A program made the position numbers and the translations under genes. A stretch of DNA of 64,000 bases. Source: Flavobacteriaceae bacterium (GTDB lineage: Bacteria; Bacteroidota; Bacteroidia; Flavobacteriales; Flavobacteriaceae). The notes below the pieces were generated by a model, which made no database searches, had not been told where the DNA came from, and saw only the letters and a program-made list of their open reading frames with translations. Positions within the stretch are counted from its first letter, which is position 1; the number at the start of each line of letters is the position of its first letter. The stretch covers positions 39,424 to 103,423 of the forward strand of contig JAFMLE010000002.1 in assembly GCA_017852395.1 (NCBI GenBank). The letters run 5' to 3'. This document shows, in pieces, positions 19,036 to 62,011 of the stretch.

Positions 19036-19039
19036 TTAC

Positions 19040-19335
19040 AGCAGGCCATCTTATCGCTGTCTCGAATTTCGAGGGGGAGGAAAGTCCGGACACCATAGAG
19101 CAGTATAGCGGGTAACGCCCGTCCTTTCATCTTTGATGGAAGAGGACCAGTGCAACAGAAAGCAAGTACAGTTCGGCTGTAGTGAAATCGGTAAACTCTA
19201 TACGGTGCAACGCCAAGTATATCTGCGCTTGAGGGTAGCTCGTCCGATGCAGAAGGGTAGGCGGTTAGAATTTTTCAGTAATGAAAGATCCAGATAAATG
19301 ATAAGACTCGACAGAATCCGGCTTATCGGCCTGCT
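19040..19335 (+). ncRNA. rnpB: RNase P RNA (class A)
   Basis: GAGGAAAGTCCGGAC core, ...ACAGAATCCGGCTTATCGGCCTGCTTTTTT 3' end; 5' GCAGGCC pairs with 3' GGCCTGC. Confidence 0.93.
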
Positions 19336-19868
19336 TTTTTCTTAAATAGGCTAAACATGCAACTGCCATATTTTCGTTGTTGATCAAAATAGGGGTGATT
19401 TTCAAAACTATGGTGGGTGTCGTGTTCGACGATTAGCCAACCGTTTTCTGCGATGTTTTTTTGAAAAATTGTTTCAATAAGAGCCTTATAATTTTCTTCA
19501 TCAAATGCATAGGGCGGATCCATAAAAACAAGATCGTATTGGAAGCCGTACTTTTCTATAAAGCTTTCGACGCTCATCCGATGGGTGTCGATAGGCAGTT
19601 GGAGTTGTTTGGCCGTTTGGTCGATAAAGCGGATACAATGGGGGTTTTGATCGACGGCTAGGATTTTTTGCACCCCACGTGAGGCAAACTCATAACTGAT
19701 GCTCCCTGTACCTGCAAAGAGATCAAGTACTTGAATCGATTGAAAATCAAACTCGTGTTGAAGGATATTAAAAAGGGCTTCTTTGGCACGATCTGTAGTG
19801 GGCCTAACCGGCAATTTTTTTGGAGCTACGAGCCTACGTCCCTTATGGATGCCTGATATGATTCGCAT
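19323..19868 (-). CDS. rsmD: 16S rRNA (guanine966-N2)-methyltransferase RsmD
   Basis: MRIISGIHKGRRL, VLDLFAGTGSISYEFASRG, LVFMDPPY. Confidence 0.93.
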   Translation of the reverse strand: MRIISGIHKGRRLVAPKKLPVRPTTDRAKEALFNILQHEFDFQSIQVLDLFAGTGSISYEFASRGVQKILAVDQNPHCIRFIDQTAKQLQLPIDTHRMSVESFIEKYGFQYDLVFMDPPYAFDEENYKALIETIFQKNIAENGWLIVEHDTHHSFENHPYFDQQRKYGSCMFSLFKKKAGR

Positions 19869-42283: not shown

Positions 42284-42367
42284 GGAGAGGTGCCAGAGTG
42301 GTAATGGAGCAGATTGCTAATCTGTCAACGTGTAAGCGTTGCCAGGGTTCGAATCCCTGTCTCTCCG
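42284..42367 (+). tRNA. tRNA-Ser(GCU)
   Basis: Cloverleaf with long variable arm (CAACG..CGTTG), anticodon GCT in CAGATTGCTAATCTG, GGTTCGAATCC T-arm; no encoded CCA. Confidence 0.95.
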
Positions 42368-53082: not shown

Positions 53083-54366
53083 TTACCACAAGACATTTGT
53101 CATTTTTTGAGCAATCGCATCTAAAGCCAATTGTCCTCGGCTTCCCAAGTGCGTATGAGGTACTGTACGGTTGGGTTTGTAGGTTCCCTCAGCGATGTTT
53201 TTTTTCATTTTTAAATAAGCGTCTCTAAAAGACATACCGTCTTGTACCCAACCGTCTAGGGTGTCAACACTAAATAATAGATCGTATTTTGGGTCGTCCA
53301 GTAGCGTCTCTTTTATGTTGATTTTTTGAATGCAAAACTCAAAAATTGAAAGGCATTCTTTAATGTTGTTAATACCACTAATCAGTAACGATTTGGTCAA
53401 TTGCATCTCACGGTGATAACCGCTGGGGAGGTTGTTGGATAGCAAGATCATTTGATTGGGCAAAGCCTGAACTAGGTTGCACTTACCACGAATCAATTCA
53501 AATACATCGGGATTTTTTTTGTGGGGCATGATACTCGATCCCGTGGTGAGTTCATCTGGAAAACTAATAAAGCCAAAGTCCTGCCCCATATACAAACAAA
53601 TGTCCATGGCCATTTTTGACAATGTTGCTGCAATCATGCTTATGGCGATAGCCGTTATTTTCTCGACTTTGCCACGGCCCATTTGTGCGTTGACGACATT
53701 GTATTTTAGGGTGCTAAAACCCAGTGCAGCAGTTGTATATTCACGATCAATTGCAAAAGCACTCCCATAACCTGCAGCACTCCCCAAAGGGTTTTGATCG
53801 ACGATTTCATAGGCCGCTTTTACCATTTGCAAATCGTCAATAATTGCTTCGGCATAGGCCGAAAACCAAAGTCCAAATGAAGAAGGCATAGCGACTTGCA
53901 TATGTGTATAACCGGGCATTAGGTGGTCTTTATGCTTATGGGCCAATTTTAAAAATATGTCAAAAAGATTTTTGCTAAGCTTTTTAATTTGATTGAGTTC
54001 GTCCTTCAAATAGAGTTGAAGTGCTACTAGCACTTGATCGTTTCTTGATCGGGCTGTATGAATTTTTTTACCCAGATCTCCCAGTTTGTCAATCAAAAGA
54101 AATTCGATTTTAGAATGTACATCTTCAAAATCTGCTTCAATCGTAAAACGACCATCTTGGGCAATCTGTTCCAACTCTTTGAGTGCTGCAACTAAGACGT
54201 CCGACTCTTCGGGTGTCAAAAGGCCAATTTTGCCCAACATTTGCGCATGTGCAGCCGAAGCGATGCAATCGTATTTGGCAAGGTGTAAGTCCACCTCGCG
54301 GTCGTTACCAACTGTAAATTGATCAATATTTTTTAAGGCACCTTCGCCTTCTTGCCAAAGTTTCAT
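53083..54366 (-). CDS. argH: Argininosuccinate lyase
   Basis: GSSIMPHKKNPDVFELIRGK; VHSKIEFLLIDKLGDLGKKIHTARSRNDQV. Confidence 0.97.
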   Translation of the reverse strand: MKLWQEGEGALKNIDQFTVGNDREVDLHLAKYDCIASAAHAQMLGKIGLLTPEESDVLVAALKELEQIAQDGRFTIEADFEDVHSKIEFLLIDKLGDLGKKIHTARSRNDQVLVALQLYLKDELNQIKKLSKNLFDIFLKLAHKHKDHLMPGYTHMQVAMPSSFGLWFSAYAEAIIDDLQMVKAAYEIVDQNPLGSAAGYGSAFAIDREYTTAALGFSTLKYNVVNAQMGRGKVEKITAIAISMIAATLSKMAMDICLYMGQDFGFISFPDELTTGSSIMPHKKNPDVFELIRGKCNLVQALPNQMILLSNNLPSGYHREMQLTKSLLISGINNIKECLSIFEFCIQKINIKETLLDDPKYDLLFSVDTLDGWVQDGMSFRDAYLKMKKNIAEGTYKPNRTVPHTHLGSRGQLALDAIAQKMTNVLW

Positions 54367-54369
54367 AGG

Positions 54370-55425
54370 TCAAAGAATTTGTTCTAAAATATTTATATAA
54401 AGCGGTATCGCTTCTTCAATTTCGTGTATATATATAAACTCGTCAGCTTGATGCGAGCGTGTAGAATCGCCAGGACCGAGTTTTAGCGAGGGGCAAGTCA
54501 GTGCGGCCATGTCTGATAGGGTGGGCGAGCCATAGGTGGTTCTACCTAAAGCAACGCCGGCTTTTACCAACGGGTGATCTATAGGTATCGATGAGCTATT
54601 TAGGTGTAAGGATCGTGGTTGGAGTTGGCAAGGGGCATTTTTGCGCAGCAAATCATAGACCTCTTGATTAGAATAGCAATCATTGACACGAACATCCACT
54701 ACCATTTTGACTTCAGCAGGCACTACATTGTGTTGCGATCCCGCTTGAAGTTGGGTAACGGTCATTTTAACAGGGCCCAATTGGTTTGATGTTTTTTCAA
54801 ATCTAAAATTTTTGAACCAATCGATTATTTCGGGTACTTTGTAAATTGGGTTATCCTCGTTGGGGTGGGCAGCATGGCCAGAGGTACCCGAAATGGTAGC
54901 ATCGAGTACGACCAATCCTTTTTCTGCTATAGCCAGCTGCATTTGTGTGGGCTCGCCAACAATTGCCAAATCAACGGGAGGCAATTGCTTTAGGATCCCT
55001 CTAAGACTATTGGGACCAGCCGTTTCTTCTTCAACACTAGCGACAAAAATAAGATTGTATTTAAGGTCTTTTATGACATAAAAATGGGTAAAAGTAGCCA
55101 GTAAAGAAACAAGCGCACCGCCAGCATCGTTACTTCCTAAGCCGTATAGTTTACCTTCTTCAATGATCGGGTCAAATGGATCTTTGGTATATCCTTTATT
55201 TGGCCGTACCGTATCATGGTGCGAATTTAATAATAAGGTGGGTTTGTTTGAATCTATGGCGCTGTGCAACGCATAGACCGTATTTCCAATTCTATGATAA
55301 GGGATTTCGTAGCGATCAAACCACTCTATCAAACAAGCAGCAGTTGCTGTTTCTTCTCCCGAAAAAGAAGGGTTTTTTATTAGTTTTTTTAGCAAAAGGA
55401 TGCTTTGGGCAATCAATTCATTCAT
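54370..55425 (-). CDS. argE: M20 family N-acyl-citrulline/ornithine deacylase (ArgE-type)
   Basis: LLLNSHHDTVRPNKGY; YGLGSNDAGGALVSL; start MNELIAQS at 55425 preferred, overlapping the argB stop. Confidence 0.88.
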   Translation of the reverse strand: MNELIAQSILLLKKLIKNPSFSGEETATAACLIEWFDRYEIPYHRIGNTVYALHSAIDSNKPTLLLNSHHDTVRPNKGYTKDPFDPIIEEGKLYGLGSNDAGGALVSLLATFTHFYVIKDLKYNLIFVASVEEETAGPNSLRGILKQLPPVDLAIVGEPTQMQLAIAEKGLVVLDATISGTSGHAAHPNEDNPIYKVPEIIDWFKNFRFEKTSNQLGPVKMTVTQLQAGSQHNVVPAEVKMVVDVRVNDCYSNQEVYDLLRKNAPCQLQPRSLHLNSSSIPIDHPLVKAGVALGRTTYGSPTLSDMAALTCPSLKLGPGDSTRSHQADEFIYIHEIEEAIPLYINILEQIL

Positions 55426-56201
55426 AAGTTGGGTATTATCGTTGTATGCACTGTGGCTCCCTGCAGCATTTCTAACGAACCAATGTGTACAGCATGGACG
55501 TTTTGGTCGATGGCGTGAAAGCAATTGTCGAGTTTCGGAATCATTCCATCCGTTATAAGGTGTTCATTTTTTAGATTTTGATAGGTGTTAAAATCGATTT
55601 TTTCAATAATTGAATCCGGATTTTCACGATTTTTGAGCACCCCGTTTTGCTCGAAGCAATACCAAAGCTCTACGGTAAAAAAGTTGGCCATAGAAACGGC
55701 CAATGCTGCAGCAATACTGTCCGCGTTGGTGTTGAGTAGTTGGCCACTTCCATCGTGGGTCAACGCACAAAATACCGGTGTGATTTTCAAATTTTCCAAA
55801 AGTGTTCTAATTGCTGCAGAATCGACACTCGCGATATCTCCAACCCAACCAAAATCAATGGGTTTTGAAGTTCTTTTTTTGGATAAAATAAGGTTGGCAT
55901 CGGCGCCGCTCATTCCCATTGCATTACACTGCAAGGCTTGAAGTTTTGCAACGATGTTTTTATTGATTTTACCCGCATAAAGCATCGTAATCACAGCTAA
56001 TGTGTCTGCATCTGTACAACGTCGGCCATCGATCATTTTGACAGGGATATTGAGTTTTTCGGCCATAAGAGACGCTTCTTTTCCACCGCCATGGACTAAA
56101 ATTTTAAGGCCCTCTAATTCTGCAAATGCCTTGAGAAAAACCGCTAACCTCTCTTCATGCTCGATGACATTGCCACCTATTTTAACAACATTAAGCTTCA
56201 T
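55422..56201 (-). CDS. argB: N-acylglutamate kinase
   Basis: VVKIGGNVIE; KILVHGGGKEAS; VFCALTHDGSGQLLNTNADSIAAALA. Confidence 0.94.
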   Translation of the reverse strand: MKLNVVKIGGNVIEHEERLAVFLKAFAELEGLKILVHGGGKEASLMAEKLNIPVKMIDGRRCTDADTLAVITMLYAGKINKNIVAKLQALQCNAMGMSGADANLILSKKRTSKPIDFGWVGDIASVDSAAIRTLLENLKITPVFCALTHDGSGQLLNTNADSIAAALAVSMANFFTVELWYCFEQNGVLKNRENPDSIIEKIDFNTYQNLKNEHLITDGMIPKLDNCFHAIDQNVHAVHIGSLEMLQGATVHTTIIPNL

Positions 56202-57138
56202 CTAAAAATTTTTTAAGTATTGCTTGCGCAGAAAAGGTTCTGTTGTTGGCTTGCTCTAGTATCAAAGCCTGAGGACTCTCCAACACATCTTGATCAACCA
56301 CCACATTGCGTCGGACAGGTAAACAATGCATAAAATAAGCGTTGTTGGTCCACTTCATCTTCGTTGCTGACACTTTCCATATGTCGTCTGTTCTCAAAAT
56401 TTGGCCATATTGCTCAAAAGAACTCCAGTTTTTGGTATAGATAAAATCAGCTCCTTCAAAAGCTTGTTTTTGATCGTAAAGAATGGTAGCTTCTTTTGTA
56501 ATTTCTGGGTCTAAGGCATACCCTTCGGGATGTGTAATGACAAATTCTGCATCCATACGATGCATCATACGGACAAACGAATTGGCCACTGCCTGGGGCA
56601 GCGCTTTGGGATGTGGTGCCCAGCTAAGTACTACTTTTGGACGTGCCGTTTTTTGAAAGGTTTTGATGGTCAAAGCATCTGCTAAAGCTTGAAGTGGATG
56701 TGCGGTCGCACTCTCTAGATTGATAATGGGGATGCTGGCGTATTTTGCAAAGCTTCGCAAAACGACCTCTGCACGGTCCTTTTGTTTGTCCTCTAAGGAA
56801 GCAAAGGCTCGAACAGCAAGCACGTCAAAATATTGTGATAGGACACCTGCGGCTTCTTTTATATGCTCTGAGGTTGTGCCATTCATCAGCACACCATCTT
56901 CAAATTCTAATGCCCAACCTTCGTTGTTAAAATTCATCACGATGGTATGCATTCCCAAATTTTGAGCTGCCTTTTGTGTGCTGATACGGGTCCTAAGGCT
57001 AGGGTTAAAAAATAAGACCCCGAGTGTTTTGTTACGTCCTAAAGCGGTATGGGCAAACGGTTGCTTTTTTAGGGCGACCATTTCTTCGATAAGGGCATCA
57101 AAGTCTTGAAGATCGTCAAGTGTGATTAACTGTTTCAT
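56191..57138 (-). CDS. argF': N-acyl (acetyl/succinyl)-L-ornithine carbamoyltransferase (ArgF'-type)
   Basis: LFFNPSLRTRISTQKAAQNLG; ESATAHPLQALADALTIK; MHCLPVRRNVVVDQDV. Confidence 0.93.
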   Translation of the reverse strand: MKQLITLDDLQDFDALIEEMVALKKQPFAHTALGRNKTLGVLFFNPSLRTRISTQKAAQNLGMHTIVMNFNNEGWALEFEDGVLMNGTTSEHIKEAAGVLSQYFDVLAVRAFASLEDKQKDRAEVVLRSFAKYASIPIINLESATAHPLQALADALTIKTFQKTARPKVVLSWAPHPKALPQAVANSFVRMMHRMDAEFVITHPEGYALDPEITKEATILYDQKQAFEGADFIYTKNWSSFEQYGQILRTDDIWKVSATKMKWTNNAYFMHCLPVRRNVVVDQDVLESPQALILEQANNRTFSAQAILKKFLDEA

Positions 57139-58259
57139 AGGGCTTCTTTTAAAGCGGTAAAAAATTGTGCAATATGATTTTGTTGAATGGTCAATGGAGG
57201 TAATAAGCGTAATAGGTTTTTATTGCTACTGCCACCAGTCATGATGTGGTGATCGTATAGGAGTTTTTTTCGAAGCGGCCCCACCTCAAAATCAAATTCT
57301 AAACCGAGCATCAATCCTTTCCCTTTAATTTTTTTAACCTCAGGAAGTACTTTTGCACTTTCAAAAAAATAGGCCCCCATTTCTTGAGCATGTTCTTGAA
57401 GCTTTTCTTTTTCCAAAACTTCCAATACTGCCAATGCGGCAGCGCAAGCCAAATGATTGCCCCCAAAGGTGGTGCCAAGCAGGCCATAGGCTGCCTCTAT
57501 AGTAGGGTGTATCAAAATCCCTCCAATCGGAAAACCATTGCCCATTCCCTTGGCCATACTGATAATGTGTGGCGTAATCGAGGCGTGTTGATAGGCAAAA
57601 AACGCCCCCGTCCTACCGTACCCACTTTGTACCTCATCGGCGATGATTAACGCGCCGTATAGATTGCATAACTGTTCTAGTTGTTCTAAAAATTTAGTCT
57701 CAGGTTGATCCAAACCACCTACACCTTGAATCACTTCTATAATCACCCCCGCGACATCGCCTTTTTTCAACTCATTTTCGAGTTGCTGCGGGTCGTTAAA
57801 AGGCAAAAAAGTGACCGGATGATGGGCGTTTAGTGGAGCAACAATTTTGGGATTGTCAGTCACGGCAACCGCTGCACTGGTCCGTCCATGAAAGCTGTTC
57901 TGAAAAGCAATGATCCTACTTTTTCCAGTATAAAAAGAAGCCAGTTTTAGTGCATTTTCATTGGCTTCAGCACCACTGTTACATAAAAACAACTGATACG
58001 TATCCAGGCAAGACAGCTGCCCAAGTTTTGTGGCTAACGCTTGCTGCAATGGATTGATAATGGCGTTTGAATAGAACACCAATTGCTCCAGTTGATCTTT
58101 AATTCTACTTACAAAATGCGGATGCCCATGGCCAATTGAAACGACCGCATGCCCACCATAGAGGTCAAGATAAGCCTGGTTGGCAGCATCATAGACAAAG
58201 ACATCTGATCCTCGGACAGGCGTCAAGTCGTATAGTGGATAAACATCAAACAGTTTCAT
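57135..58259 (-). CDS. argD: Acetyl/succinylornithine aminotransferase
   Basis: FLCNSGAEANENALKLAS; IIADEVQSGYGRTGAFFAYQH; SMAKGMGNGFPIGG. Confidence 0.96.
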   Translation of the reverse strand: MKLFDVYPLYDLTPVRGSDVFVYDAANQAYLDLYGGHAVVSIGHGHPHFVSRIKDQLEQLVFYSNAIINPLQQALATKLGQLSCLDTYQLFLCNSGAEANENALKLASFYTGKSRIIAFQNSFHGRTSAAVAVTDNPKIVAPLNAHHPVTFLPFNDPQQLENELKKGDVAGVIIEVIQGVGGLDQPETKFLEQLEQLCNLYGALIIADEVQSGYGRTGAFFAYQHASITPHIISMAKGMGNGFPIGGILIHPTIEAAYGLLGTTFGGNHLACAAALAVLEVLEKEKLQEHAQEMGAYFFESAKVLPEVKKIKGKGLMLGLEFDFEVGPLRKKLLYDHHIMTGGSSNKNLLRLLPPLTIQQNHIAQFFTALKEAL

Positions 58260-59050
58260 GATTGGGCGATTTCATTAATTTTTTCATACGATTTAAGCAA
58301 CCCTTTGATTAGCGAGGAACTCAATCCTTGAAATTCCATCTCATTGAGCCCCGAAATGGTACAACCTTTAGGCGTTGTAACCTTGTCGATTTCTCTTTCG
58401 GGATGCGATGCGGTATTGACCAATAAACTTGCTGCACCAAGGCAGGTATGCACCGACATTTCGAGTGCAATTTGAGCATCAAACCCCATCTGAATCCCCC
58501 CTTGGGTAGTGGCGCGGATCATACGCATCCAAAAGGCGATGCCGCTAGAACACAAAACCGTTGCCGCTTGCATCAGCGCTTCATCAATTACAACCGTTTT
58601 ACCCATAAGTCCAAATAGTGCTTCAGCCACAGGTATTCGTTTTAGTCCCTTAGAATTGGCACAAAGACACGTCATCGATTTGCTTACAGCTATCGCGGTA
58701 TTGGGCATGGCACGTATGATGGAGTGCTCAGTGCCTAGTATGGATTCGATTTGATGGATTTTAAAACCTGTTGCTGTTGAAATAATTTGGTGTTTGTCGT
58801 GCAAAAACGGTTTGATTTCTTCCAACACTTTTTTTAAGTGATTGGGTTGAACCGACAAAATCAAGATATCAGCATTTTTTACCGCTTCCTCGTTTGAATT
58901 GGTCGTGTAAACTTTGGGAAAATCTTCCCAACTTTTGATTGTGCTCGCTTGACGTTTTGTTAAATAAAAAGTGGTGTATAAGTTATTATCTATAATACCT
59001 TTTGCGATACTAACTCCGAGATTTCCAGCTCCAATTATGGCAATTTTCAT
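58256..59050 (-). CDS. proC: Pyrroline-5-carboxylate reductase
   Basis: IAIIGAGNLGVSIAKGI; IIRAMPNTAIAVSKSMTC; TTPKGCTISGLNEME. Confidence 0.94.
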   Translation of the reverse strand: MKIAIIGAGNLGVSIAKGIIDNNLYTTFYLTKRQASTIKSWEDFPKVYTTNSNEEAVKNADILILSVQPNHLKKVLEEIKPFLHDKHQIISTATGFKIHQIESILGTEHSIIRAMPNTAIAVSKSMTCLCANSKGLKRIPVAEALFGLMGKTVVIDEALMQAATVLCSSGIAFWMRMIRATTQGGIQMGFDAQIALEMSVHTCLGAASLLVNTASHPEREIDKVTTPKGCTISGLNEMEFQGLSSSLIKGLLKSYEKINEIAQS

Positions 59051-59059
59051 ACGTTATTT

Positions 59060-60031
59060 TTAAAATACTGAAGGTTTTAAGTGCAACCCCAGATGTTCTT
59101 CAAGCCCTAGGATTAAATTGAGGTTTTGCAGCGCCTGACCTGCGGCTCCCTTGACAAGATTGTCAATAATACTGGTTATCAATAAAAAATCGTTGTGTTT
59201 GTGCAGATGCAAAATGCAGTTATTGGTATTGATAACTTGTTTTAGATGTATGGGATGTTTTGAGCGATGGGTAAACGGAGCCGTTGTATAAAACTGATCA
59301 TACAACGCCGATGCTTCTTCGACGGTTCCGTCAAATTGGGTGTACAGGGTTGCAAAAATGCCCCGTGTAAAGGGCCCCCTTTGGGGTAAAAAATGAACGT
59401 TTGCAGTGGCACCTACTTGAGCTAAAGTTTCTGAAATTTCTCCCAAGTGTTGATGTGTAAAAGGCTTGTACCAAGACAAGTTGTCGTTTCGCCAGCTAAA
59501 ATGACTGGTTTCGGACAATCCAACTCCCGCCCCTGTACTTCCGGTGGTGGCATTAACATGAATATCATGGTGCAACAGTCTTTCTTGTGCCAATGGCAAT
59601 AAGGCCAACTGAATTGCAGTAGCAAAACATCCAGGATTGGCAATCGATTTGGTGTTTTCTATGGCCGATTTGTTGATTTCTGGTAGGCCATAAACAAAGT
59701 TTCTGTGATTAAAATTCTGGTCTTCTTTTAAGCGAAAATCATTGCTCAGGTCGATAATGATCGTGTTTTCAGAAAATGAATGTTCCTGTAAAAAAGCCGC
59801 AGATTTTCCATGTCCCAAGCATAAAAAGAGGACATCGATGTCGGTGTTTATTTGATTTGTAAACTGCAACTCGGTTTGCCCTAAAAGTTCTGTATGGTGA
59901 TCAGTTAGTGCTGTTCCGGGTCGGCTGGTACTGTAAACAAAATCAATTTCGAGGGCGGGATGTCCCAAAATTAACCGTATGAGTTCTCCACCCGTATAGC
60001 CCGAGCCTCCTATGATACCTACTTTAATCAT
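59060..60031 (-). CDS. argC: N-acetyl-gamma-glutamyl-phosphate reductase
   Basis: VGIIGGSGYTGGELIRLI; IANPGCFATAIQLAL; HVNATTGSTGAG. Confidence 0.96.
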   Translation of the reverse strand: MIKVGIIGGSGYTGGELIRLILGHPALEIDFVYSTSRPGTALTDHHTELLGQTELQFTNQINTDIDVLFLCLGHGKSAAFLQEHSFSENTIIIDLSNDFRLKEDQNFNHRNFVYGLPEINKSAIENTKSIANPGCFATAIQLALLPLAQERLLHHDIHVNATTGSTGAGVGLSETSHFSWRNDNLSWYKPFTHQHLGEISETLAQVGATANVHFLPQRGPFTRGIFATLYTQFDGTVEEASALYDQFYTTAPFTHRSKHPIHLKQVINTNNCILHLHKHNDFLLITSIIDNLVKGAAGQALQNLNLILGLEEHLGLHLKPSVF

Positions 60032-61211
60032 TTTTTACTTTTATGGATTGATAAATTTTTTGTGCAGTAGCACTTACTTTAATAAACCCTTTGGCATCAT
60101 CTGCAGTCCATGACTTGTTCATTTCGCCGTAGGCACCAAATTGAGATTTCATCAAATCATTTTCAGATTCGATTCCGAGTAGTTCAAAACGATAGGGGTA
60201 AAGTTTGATGAAAACCGTTCCGCTGACCCGATTTTGACTACTTTCTAAAAAGGCTTCTATGTCGCGCATTACGGGGTCAAGATAGTTGCCTTCGTGGAGT
60301 TGCATTCCATAAAAATTGCTCATCTGTTCTTTTTGAAATTGTTGCCATTTGCTCATGGTGTGCTTTTCCAAAAGATGGTGGGCTTTAATCAATATTAGTG
60401 GTGCTGCAGCTTCAAAACCAACTCTACCTTTGATACCAACAATGGTGTCTCCGACATGGATATCCCGTCCGATAGCAAATTTGCTCGCAAGTGCTTGGAG
60501 CGCTTCAATCACTTTGATGGGAGGGTTTTGTTGGCCGTTGAGCCCTATAGCTTCACCTTTTTTAAAGCTTATGCTTATGTCTATTGGCTCGTTGTTTTCT
60601 AGTTGTGAGGGGTAGGCTTCATTGGGCAGTGCCTGGTGGGAGGTTAGGGTTTCTTTGCCACCTACACTGGTTCCCCAAAGCCCTTTATTGATCGAATATT
60701 GTGCTTTTTCCCAAGACATATGCACCCCTTGAGACTGCAAATACTCGATTTCTTCTTGACGGCTAATTTTTTCGTCTCTGATGGGTGTTATGATCGCAAT
60801 GTTTGGCGCCAGAATTTGAAAAATAGCATCAAAACGGACTTGATCATTTCCGGCTCCTGTACTTCCATGAACAATACCATCAGCGTTGATTTTTTTGGCG
60901 TAGTCTATCAATGCAATTGCTTGTACAATACGTTCTGCCGAGACCGATAGCGGATAGGTATTGTTTCGCAGTACGTTGCCAAAAATTAGGTATTTTATAA
61001 TATCATTATAAAACGTTTCTACGGAATCTACACATTCGTAAGAATGTGCGCCCATGTCCAAAGCACGTTGTTTTTGTTCGGCAATGGTTGCGGTGTCAAA
61101 GCCTCCAGTATTTATGGAAATAGCATGTACCTCATGATTTTCTTTGGCCAATTTTACCAAGCAATACGAGGTGTCTAAACCGCCACTGTAGGCGAGTACA
61201 AGTCTTTTCAT
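60024..61211 (-). CDS. argG: Argininosuccinate synthase
   Basis: VLAYSGGLDTSYCLVKL; GIVHGSTGAGNDQVRFD. Confidence 0.96.
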   Translation of the reverse strand: MKRLVLAYSGGLDTSYCLVKLAKENHEVHAISINTGGFDTATIAEQKQRALDMGAHSYECVDSVETFYNDIIKYLIFGNVLRNNTYPLSVSAERIVQAIALIDYAKKINADGIVHGSTGAGNDQVRFDAIFQILAPNIAIITPIRDEKISRQEEIEYLQSQGVHMSWEKAQYSINKGLWGTSVGGKETLTSHQALPNEAYPSQLENNEPIDISISFKKGEAIGLNGQQNPPIKVIEALQALASKFAIGRDIHVGDTIVGIKGRVGFEAAAPLILIKAHHLLEKHTMSKWQQFQKEQMSNFYGMQLHEGNYLDPVMRDIEAFLESSQNRVSGTVFIKLYPYRFELLGIESENDLMKSQFGAYGEMNKSWTADDAKGFIKVSATAQKIYQSIKVKND

Positions 61212-61816
61212 TTGGTTTTTTTTATAAATAAGGTGTTTTTGATTGATTTGAGTCTTTCGCCAACCTTTCGATTAAATTTTGATTTTTTGGTGTTGTTTTT
61301 AGGATCATAAAGCATGCCTGTACACAAACACATGGTGCGTTCGGTTCGGGTGAGTACATCAAAGTTTTTGCAGGTTTTGCAACCATTCCAAAACTCAGGA
61401 TCATCGGTTAGTTCGGAAAAGTGAACAGGTTTGTACCCCAATTCGTAATTAATCTTCATAACCGCCATGCCGGTGGTGATTCCAAAAATTTTGGCATCCG
61501 GAAATTTCTTTAGCGAAAGATCCAGTACCTTTTTTTTGATTTTTTTGGCCACTCCATGGCCTCTAAAATCGGGTGATACAATAAGCCCAGAATGCGCAAC
61601 ATATTTGCCATGTCCCCATACTTCTATATAACAAAACCCAACAAAAGTGTTGTCTTTGATGGCGATTACGGCATTTCCATTTTGCATTTTGGTGCGAATA
61701 TATTCGGGGGTTCTCAGCGCGATTCCAGTTCCTCGAACTTTGGCTGATGCATCAATACATGCTGCAATATCTGCGGCATATTGATAATGTGTTGCGTTAG
61801 CATTGGTTATTTCCAA
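61208..61816 (-). CDS. GNAT-family acyltransferase heading the arg operon (candidate N-acylglutamate synthase)
   Basis: GNAT motif A LIVSPDFRGHGVAKKIKKKVL; TTG start; overlaps argG start; C-terminal CKTC...CLC. Confidence 0.85.
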   Translation of the reverse strand: MEITNANATHYQYAADIAACIDASAKVRGTGIALRTPEYIRTKMQNGNAVIAIKDNTFVGFCYIEVWGHGKYVAHSGLIVSPDFRGHGVAKKIKKKVLDLSLKKFPDAKIFGITTGMAVMKINYELGYKPVHFSELTDDPEFWNGCKTCKNFDVLTRTERTMCLCTGMLYDPKNNTKKSKFNRKVGERLKSIKNTLFIKKTK

Positions 61817-61883
61817 CGTTTACTAAGTTGTTAATTAAAAAAAGTGAAATTTGATTGCGAACGAGTTGGACACACCTAACTCT

Positions 61884-61919
61884 AAAAAAGTACTACACCC
61901 CCAAGGGGCGGCGTGTAGT
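61884..61919 (-). terminator. Terminator-like (attenuator) hairpin in the arg operon leader
   Basis: Minus strand ACTACAC-(GCCGCCCCTTGGGG)-GTGTAGT then ACTTTTTT; U6 at 61889-61884. Confidence 0.8.
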
Positions 61920-61976
61920 GCTGCGTGACAAGGTCCTTAAAACCAAAGCATGCTTGTATGTGTACTTTTTTAACAT
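61893..61976 (-). CDS. Candidate arginine-rich leader peptide of the arg operon
   Basis: ATG TTA AAA AAG TAC ACA TAC AAG CAT GCT TTG GTT TTA AGG ACC TTG TCA CGC AGC ACT ACA CGC CGC CCC TTG GGG GTG TAG = MLKKYTYKHALVLRTLSRSTTRRPLGV*. Confidence 0.7.
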   Translation of the reverse strand: MLKKYTYKHALVLRTLSRSTTRRPLGV

Positions 61977-61980
61977 TAAA

Positions 61981-62011
61981 CAAATTAAGGGACATATATT
62001 TTGTAATGCAA
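61981..62011 (-). promoter_or_regulatory. Candidate arg operon promoter TTG-N20-TTAATTTG
   Basis: TTG at 62011-62009, TTAATTTG at 61988-61981 (7/8 match to TAnnTTTG), 20-nt spacer as for the tRNA-Ser promoter. Confidence 0.5.

Follow-up and report, generated by a model that had tools for sequence, protein, structure and literature searches.

What controls the arginine biosynthesis operon of a flavobacterium in which a short reading frame rich in Arg codons runs into a terminator-like hairpin ahead of the first gene? Arginine operons are usually explained by the repressor ArgR, while leader-peptide attenuation of amino-acid operons (trp, his, thr, leu, ilv) is textbook knowledge. The locus lies on the minus strand of a 64,000-nucleotide stretch of Flavobacteriaceae DNA (the window, by which we mean the whole stretch analysed), and an earlier note made from its letters had proposed that low Arg-tRNA stalls the ribosome over the 5' arm of the terminator and so allows read-through. 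As set out below, conservation at 90 of 100 loci, frame-specific Arg codons and enrichment of the hairpin support this proposal at the level of sequence comparison, and we put at roughly 0.8 the probability that the leader acts as a ribosome-mediated transcription attenuator sensing charged tRNA-Arg.

Direct reading confirms the 27-codon ORF with its Arg codons AGG, CGC and CGC CGC before the arginine operon (Table 1), and the genes of the nine-gene run GNAT-argG-argC-proC-argD-argF'-argB-argE-argH have the identities first claimed for them. NCBIfam matches lie above cut-off for argC, proC, argF' (N-acetylornithine carbamoyltransferase), argB and argH; argG and argD are the top matches of their genes but fall under the cut-off, and the matches are weak for argE (ArgE/DapE family) and for GNAT. 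The hairpin ACTACAC...GTGTAGT that ends in U6 is likewise present as described. No promoter box had been seen between this hairpin and GNAT; a promoter-like box was found ahead of the leader instead, with one mismatch to TAnnTTTG and 4 nt before the leader ATG. A locus of the same genus (L115) has the same TTAATTTG box and the same 4 nt ahead of its leader.

Table 1. Features of the arginine leader and operon, in positions of the window
Feature	Position	Strand	Details and basis
Promoter-like site, flavobacterial type	61981..62011	(-)	TTG 62011-62009, 20 nt, TTAATTTG 61988-61981
Leader peptide ORF MLKKYTYKHALVLRTLSRSTTRRPLGV, 27 codons	61893..61976	(-)	ATG 61976-61974, stop TAG 61895-61893; sequence read
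Leader Arg codons	AGG 61937-61935; CGC 61925-61923; CGC CGC 61913-61908	(-)	sequence read
Hairpin 1, core CGCCCC-UUG-GGGGUG	61896..61910	(-)	covers last Arg codon; alignment and pair counts
Hairpin 1, outward extension in the window	span 61919-61892	(-)	ACTACAC 61919-61913, GTGTAGT 61898-61892
U6 tract after hairpin 1	61884..61889	(-)	sequence read
Hairpin 2, GAGTT-A-GG-TGTGT-CC-AACTC	61863..61882	(-)	conserved bulged hairpin; across 90 loci the core is invariant and the stem covaries
GNAT-family acetyltransferase, operon gene 1	61208..61816	(-)	TTG start as listed; in-frame ATG at 61801
argG, argC, proC, argD, argF', argB, argE-like, argH	53083..61211	(-)	NCBIfam and ORFs

Considered on its own, the window is unremarkable: the fold z is 0.11, and 4 terminator-like sites occur in 2 kb versus 2.1 expected. 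The feature owes its significance to comparison across genomes. Of 151 genomes of the family, 100 contain GNAT, which always adjoins argG in the relatives; almost every one of these 100 represents a different genus, and we compared the regions upstream of GNAT. At nearly every locus the 200 nt or so ahead of GNAT contain a short ORF with a cluster of Arg codons at its end (MKNELYISTTNWAVAPNRSFAPTRRRP, MKGQRHISNTLSNLAPVRPFSRRRRP and MQNNQNIQFLSELTAPGIVFAITPVRPIRRRRP are examples), and 90 of the 100 loci, from about 90 genera of marine flavobacteria, share a complete layout of such an ORF, a GC hairpin containing Arg codons (hairpin 1), a U-rich stretch and a second hairpin (hairpin 2). The full element is absent from the remaining 10, and some genera are without any clear Arg leader. 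The check proposed in the earlier note, namely whether an Arg-rich short ORF plus terminator is kept in relatives while the sequence drifts, thus has a positive outcome at 90 of 100 loci. These 90 can be aligned from the Arg codons onward, with a common core of CGN-CGY-CGC-CCG-TAA-GGGTG, the U-rich stretch and GGAAC(U)(U)A-GG-UGNGU-CC-RGUUCC; the leader peptides themselves drift freely apart from Arg and the Pro encoded by the stem.

Pairing in hairpin 1 does not call for Arg codons ahead of the stem. Counted without regard to relatedness (the genera are distinct and the peptides share little else), the 15 codons before the stem in the 90 loci contain no stop among 1350 codons of the leader frame, against 55 and 82 in the other two frames, and 221 Arg codons, against 60 and 47. 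In the 9 codons nearest the stem, 25% of the in-frame codons are Arg, compared with 5% and 3% in the two other frames, and one or more Arg codons occur there in 87 of the 90 loci. Outside the stem, CGY accounts for 81% of Arg codons, compared with 35 of 82 for the operon genes of the window itself. This pattern argues that the leader is translated and that arginine is what strong selection maintains. In 17 loci an exact TAnnTTTG box precedes the leader ATG by 7-8 nt, and the transcript probably starts almost at the leader start codon; translation initiation in Bacteroidota differs from that in E. coli.

Across the family, hairpin 1 consists of CGCCC, a loop and GGGUG, with a C-G pair exchanged for A-U in three loci. 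The long outer stem of the window is private to its genome, and the same-genus locus L115 is without it. The Arg22-Arg23 pair, which the earlier note had placed just past the 5' arm, in fact lies inside the hairpin, and the conserved core contains the last Arg codon. Its placement of the stop codon in the 3' arm is right for the window but not for most relatives: in 76 of 90 loci the stop (TAA, TAG and one TGA) falls inside the loop, while the window's clade has TTG or TTT as loop and an ORF that in most cases continues through the 3' arm as RRPLGV or RRPFGV. Downstream of hairpin 1, T content reaches 60% versus a background of 36% (90 loci), in a stretch that is imperfect and in many species peaks only 9-12 nt past the hairpin. 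Under a strict rule, 40 of the 90 loci have a terminator-like site at hairpin 1 versus 8.1 expected from shuffles (about five times as many), and under a looser rule 61 have one versus 16.6 expected. The window and its clade have a good U-run after hairpin 1, which in the window fits the consensus of an intrinsic terminator.

About half of the loci, then, fail the strict terminator rule, and this leaves some room for a model in which the sensor is the same and the output is not: stalling on Arg codons would act through Rho-dependent termination or through decay of the mRNA, and hairpin 2 would belong to the switch. There is a precedent in Salmonella speF orf34, where consecutive Arg codons work together with Rho and RNase G (PMC6386406), and the strong conservation of hairpin 2 downstream would fit as well. 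However, hairpin 1 and the U-rich stretch are clearly enriched over shuffles, and the U-run is good in the window and its clade, so that we regard control through Rho or decay as unlikely.

How would the transcription attenuator work? Transcription would start just ahead of the leader ATG. With arginine plentiful, the ribosome would pass the Arg codons, reach the stop inside or at hairpin 1 and release; hairpin 1 could then form, and RNA polymerase would tend to end transcription in the U-rich stretch, ahead of the operon. When arginine is short, the ribosome would stall on the clustered CGY codons, which are either part of the 5' arm of hairpin 1 or immediately ahead of it, cover that arm and block the hairpin, giving read-through into GNAT-argG-...-argH. 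The genomes themselves show the leader ORF and the frame it keeps, the Arg codons, hairpin 1 with the U-rich stretch, where the promoter lies, and the conservation of these features; stalling, termination and the response to arginine are what these features lead us to infer. An antiterminator may be unnecessary, as the ribosome might itself block the terminator arm. Pairing of the linker with the 5' arm of hairpin 2 looks plausible by eye in several species and was rejected as an antiterminator, since its mean z of -0.27 is no better than that of shuffled linkers; pairing of upstream sequence with the linker scores slightly above shuffles, and no conserved antiterminator was found among these pairings.

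Hairpin 2, which would form only after read-through, sits just outside the range covered by the earlier note and was overlooked there, and yet it is the best-conserved part of the element, more so than hairpin 1. Its columns G, G, U, G, G and C are invariant or almost so, and double changes occur in each of the five pairs of the outer stem. The structure as a whole has 63 double-change cells versus 17 in shuffles, with a covariation score of 0.227 versus 0.112 in shuffles and at most 0.127 in slid controls. Some of the loci that depart from GG:CC keep the pentaloop, as GA-UGUGU-UC (L027, L134) or GA-UGCGU-UC (L064). A covariance model built on hairpins 1 and 2 finds one strong site per genome, always ahead of GNAT-argG; the weaker hits that were inspected, candidates for the element at other operons, are all chance matches, and a search of 295 genomes of the class gave no convincing site outside the family. 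One such false positive is a 25.6-bit hit in a genome of genus g129 (L135), located in GTTGTGGTTTGATTAAAGATTAGA-type repeats that resemble a CRISPR array.

What might hairpin 2 do? Several roles were considered and discarded. It is not a terminator, there being no U-run after it (the sequence is A-rich instead); a pseudoknot via the variable loop base has no covarying column; pairing of the loop GGUG with CGCC of the Arg codons shows no covariation with the third base of Arg codons; and the distance to GNAT is not constant modulo 3, contrary to what an ORF starting in the hairpin would require. Because it comes after the decision point and has no U-tract, the most likely role, held with low confidence, is on the read-through mRNA, for instance as a binding site or stability element. 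Going further, we tentatively suggest that hairpin 2 could be a new sequence-specific RNA signal of flavobacterial arginine operons, read by a trans-acting factor (a protein, the ribosome or an RNA polymerase accessory factor) and working with the leader peptide and the stop-in-loop terminator as a two-layer arginine switch of undescribed design; we consider this possible rather than probable. That hairpin 2 is itself the sensor, riboswitch-like or protein-binding, with the leader peptide secondary, is improbable. In its favour, the A-GG-UGNGU-CC core hardly varies and sits on a covarying stem, but the element is small for a riboswitch, its variable loop base has no covarying partner, and it is the Arg codons and the reading frame that are under strong selection. 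Least credible of all is a nascent-peptide arrest in which arginine or the peptide sequence stalls the ribosome at high arginine, as in TnaC, SpeFL and the fungal arginine attenuator peptide: many leaders do end in Arg-Arg-Pro-stop, and TnaC, too, has a Pro ahead of its stop, but no peptide sequence is conserved beyond Arg, the Pro codon CCN is also demanded by the stem of hairpin 1, and repressing a biosynthetic operon at high arginine requires no arrest.

If the operon is governed by ribosome-mediated attenuation, is there a repressor as well? ArgR (PF01316) was found in none of 40 relatives, including the window's genome G000 (86% complete), while the same search recovered it from 9 of 14 control genomes, a Bacteroides among them. 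This result fits the leader as main regulator, and the attenuator very probably takes the place of the customary repressor, apparently absent from these bacteria. Rfam models, including RF01692 and the T-box and riboswitch families, do not match the leader, and hairpin 2 is absent from Rfam. Elsewhere in the window, Rfam places a class A RNase P RNA at 19038-19341 and a tRNA gene at 42284-42367, both on the plus strand.

How does this arrangement compare with known systems? Like the classical attenuators (trp, his, thr, leu, ilv and phe, in Proteobacteria and Actinobacteria), it combines a leader ORF rich in codons for the end product, a hairpin with a U-rich stretch and a biosynthetic operon downstream. 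Unlike them, it concerns arginine, has Arg codons within the terminator stem, begins with the leader almost at the 5' end of the transcript, carries the extra conserved hairpin 2 and has yielded no antiterminator. The authors of a 2010 study knew of no leader-peptide system shown outside Proteobacteria and Actinobacteria before their own case in Firmicutes (PMC2965389). Within the same phylum, leader-peptide attenuation has been proposed from transcriptome data for amino-acid operons of Flavobacterium psychrophilum, with pheA and hisG among the conserved 5' elements (PMC9723704); these are also cis-regulatory leaders of amino-acid operons, and arginine is not named in the available part of that report. 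The Bacteroid-trp motif RF01692, a listed Bacteroidetes motif (PMC2864571), is another amino-acid operon leader of the phylum, but its model does not match the arg leader. In speF orf34 (PMC6386406) consecutive Arg codons of a leader ORF also sense arginine and change RNA folding, but the leader is long, the controlled gene encodes ornithine decarboxylase and the host is a gammaproteobacterium. The short leader ORF rbfL of Staphylococcus aureus (PMC13009471) likewise reports arginine limitation through Arg codons, but it does so via a rare AGG codon, by translational repression of a biofilm regulator and with no terminator.

In the openly readable literature we found no published arginine leader on an arginine biosynthesis operon. 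The earlier note knew of no Arg leader-peptide attenuator described in Bacteroidetes; attenuation by leader peptides as such had already been proposed for amino-acid operons of a flavobacterium (PMC9723704). The present reading would add arginine biosynthesis in Bacteroidota to the processes under leader-peptide attenuation, and it brings to light a conserved hairpin; as a large bacterial family with no detectable ArgR appears to rely on an Arg leader, arginine regulation in Flavobacteriaceae becomes directly testable.

Arg leader peptides probably reach beyond the one RNA element. Elsewhere in the order, other families have short Arg-rich ORFs that differ in sequence ahead of GNAT-argG (MNLRRRRPVRR in f2, MNKTTKHINTLAPRFFRRPLWVLN in f3, MNTEYGFSSYLRCRRSSAIA in f9 and MKQVNKYTPLERPVLTIGIGCFSPQDRFRRQPNRQ in f15). 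At three f2 loci (L195, L197, L198) the leader ends in RRRPVRV or RRRRPVRR and is followed about 20 nt on, in the same place as hairpin 2, by a hairpin with an invariant UACGU loop and a varying stem (AUGGU/ACCAU, AUGAU/AUCAU), possibly a distant relative of hairpin 2. Some genomes of genus g129 have another candidate leader, MNKTSLHITSLSRTNRPTTSPEVRML, or none. One clade (L028, L039, L042, L045, L058, L061, L080, L086, L095) apparently has two arginine leaders in tandem: a second, earlier Arg-rich ORF such as MKNLKNKIRCSIPGLPVRNRRRF lies about 300 nt before GNAT with a promoter-like box right before its ATG, and the main leader mostly starts with GTG or TTG 27-28 codons before the stem and has an extra AT-rich hairpin, AGTTAAT...ATTAAC. 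Finally, in the window's own genome (contig C30, locus L226) a short leader, MQMKYIHTHLIFRAQAR, and a strong intrinsic terminator, ACCCGTTTGAGTATCAAACGGGTTTTTTTT, precede hisG of the his operon; since that operon has a leader and terminator of its own, leader attenuation is probably general in this genome.
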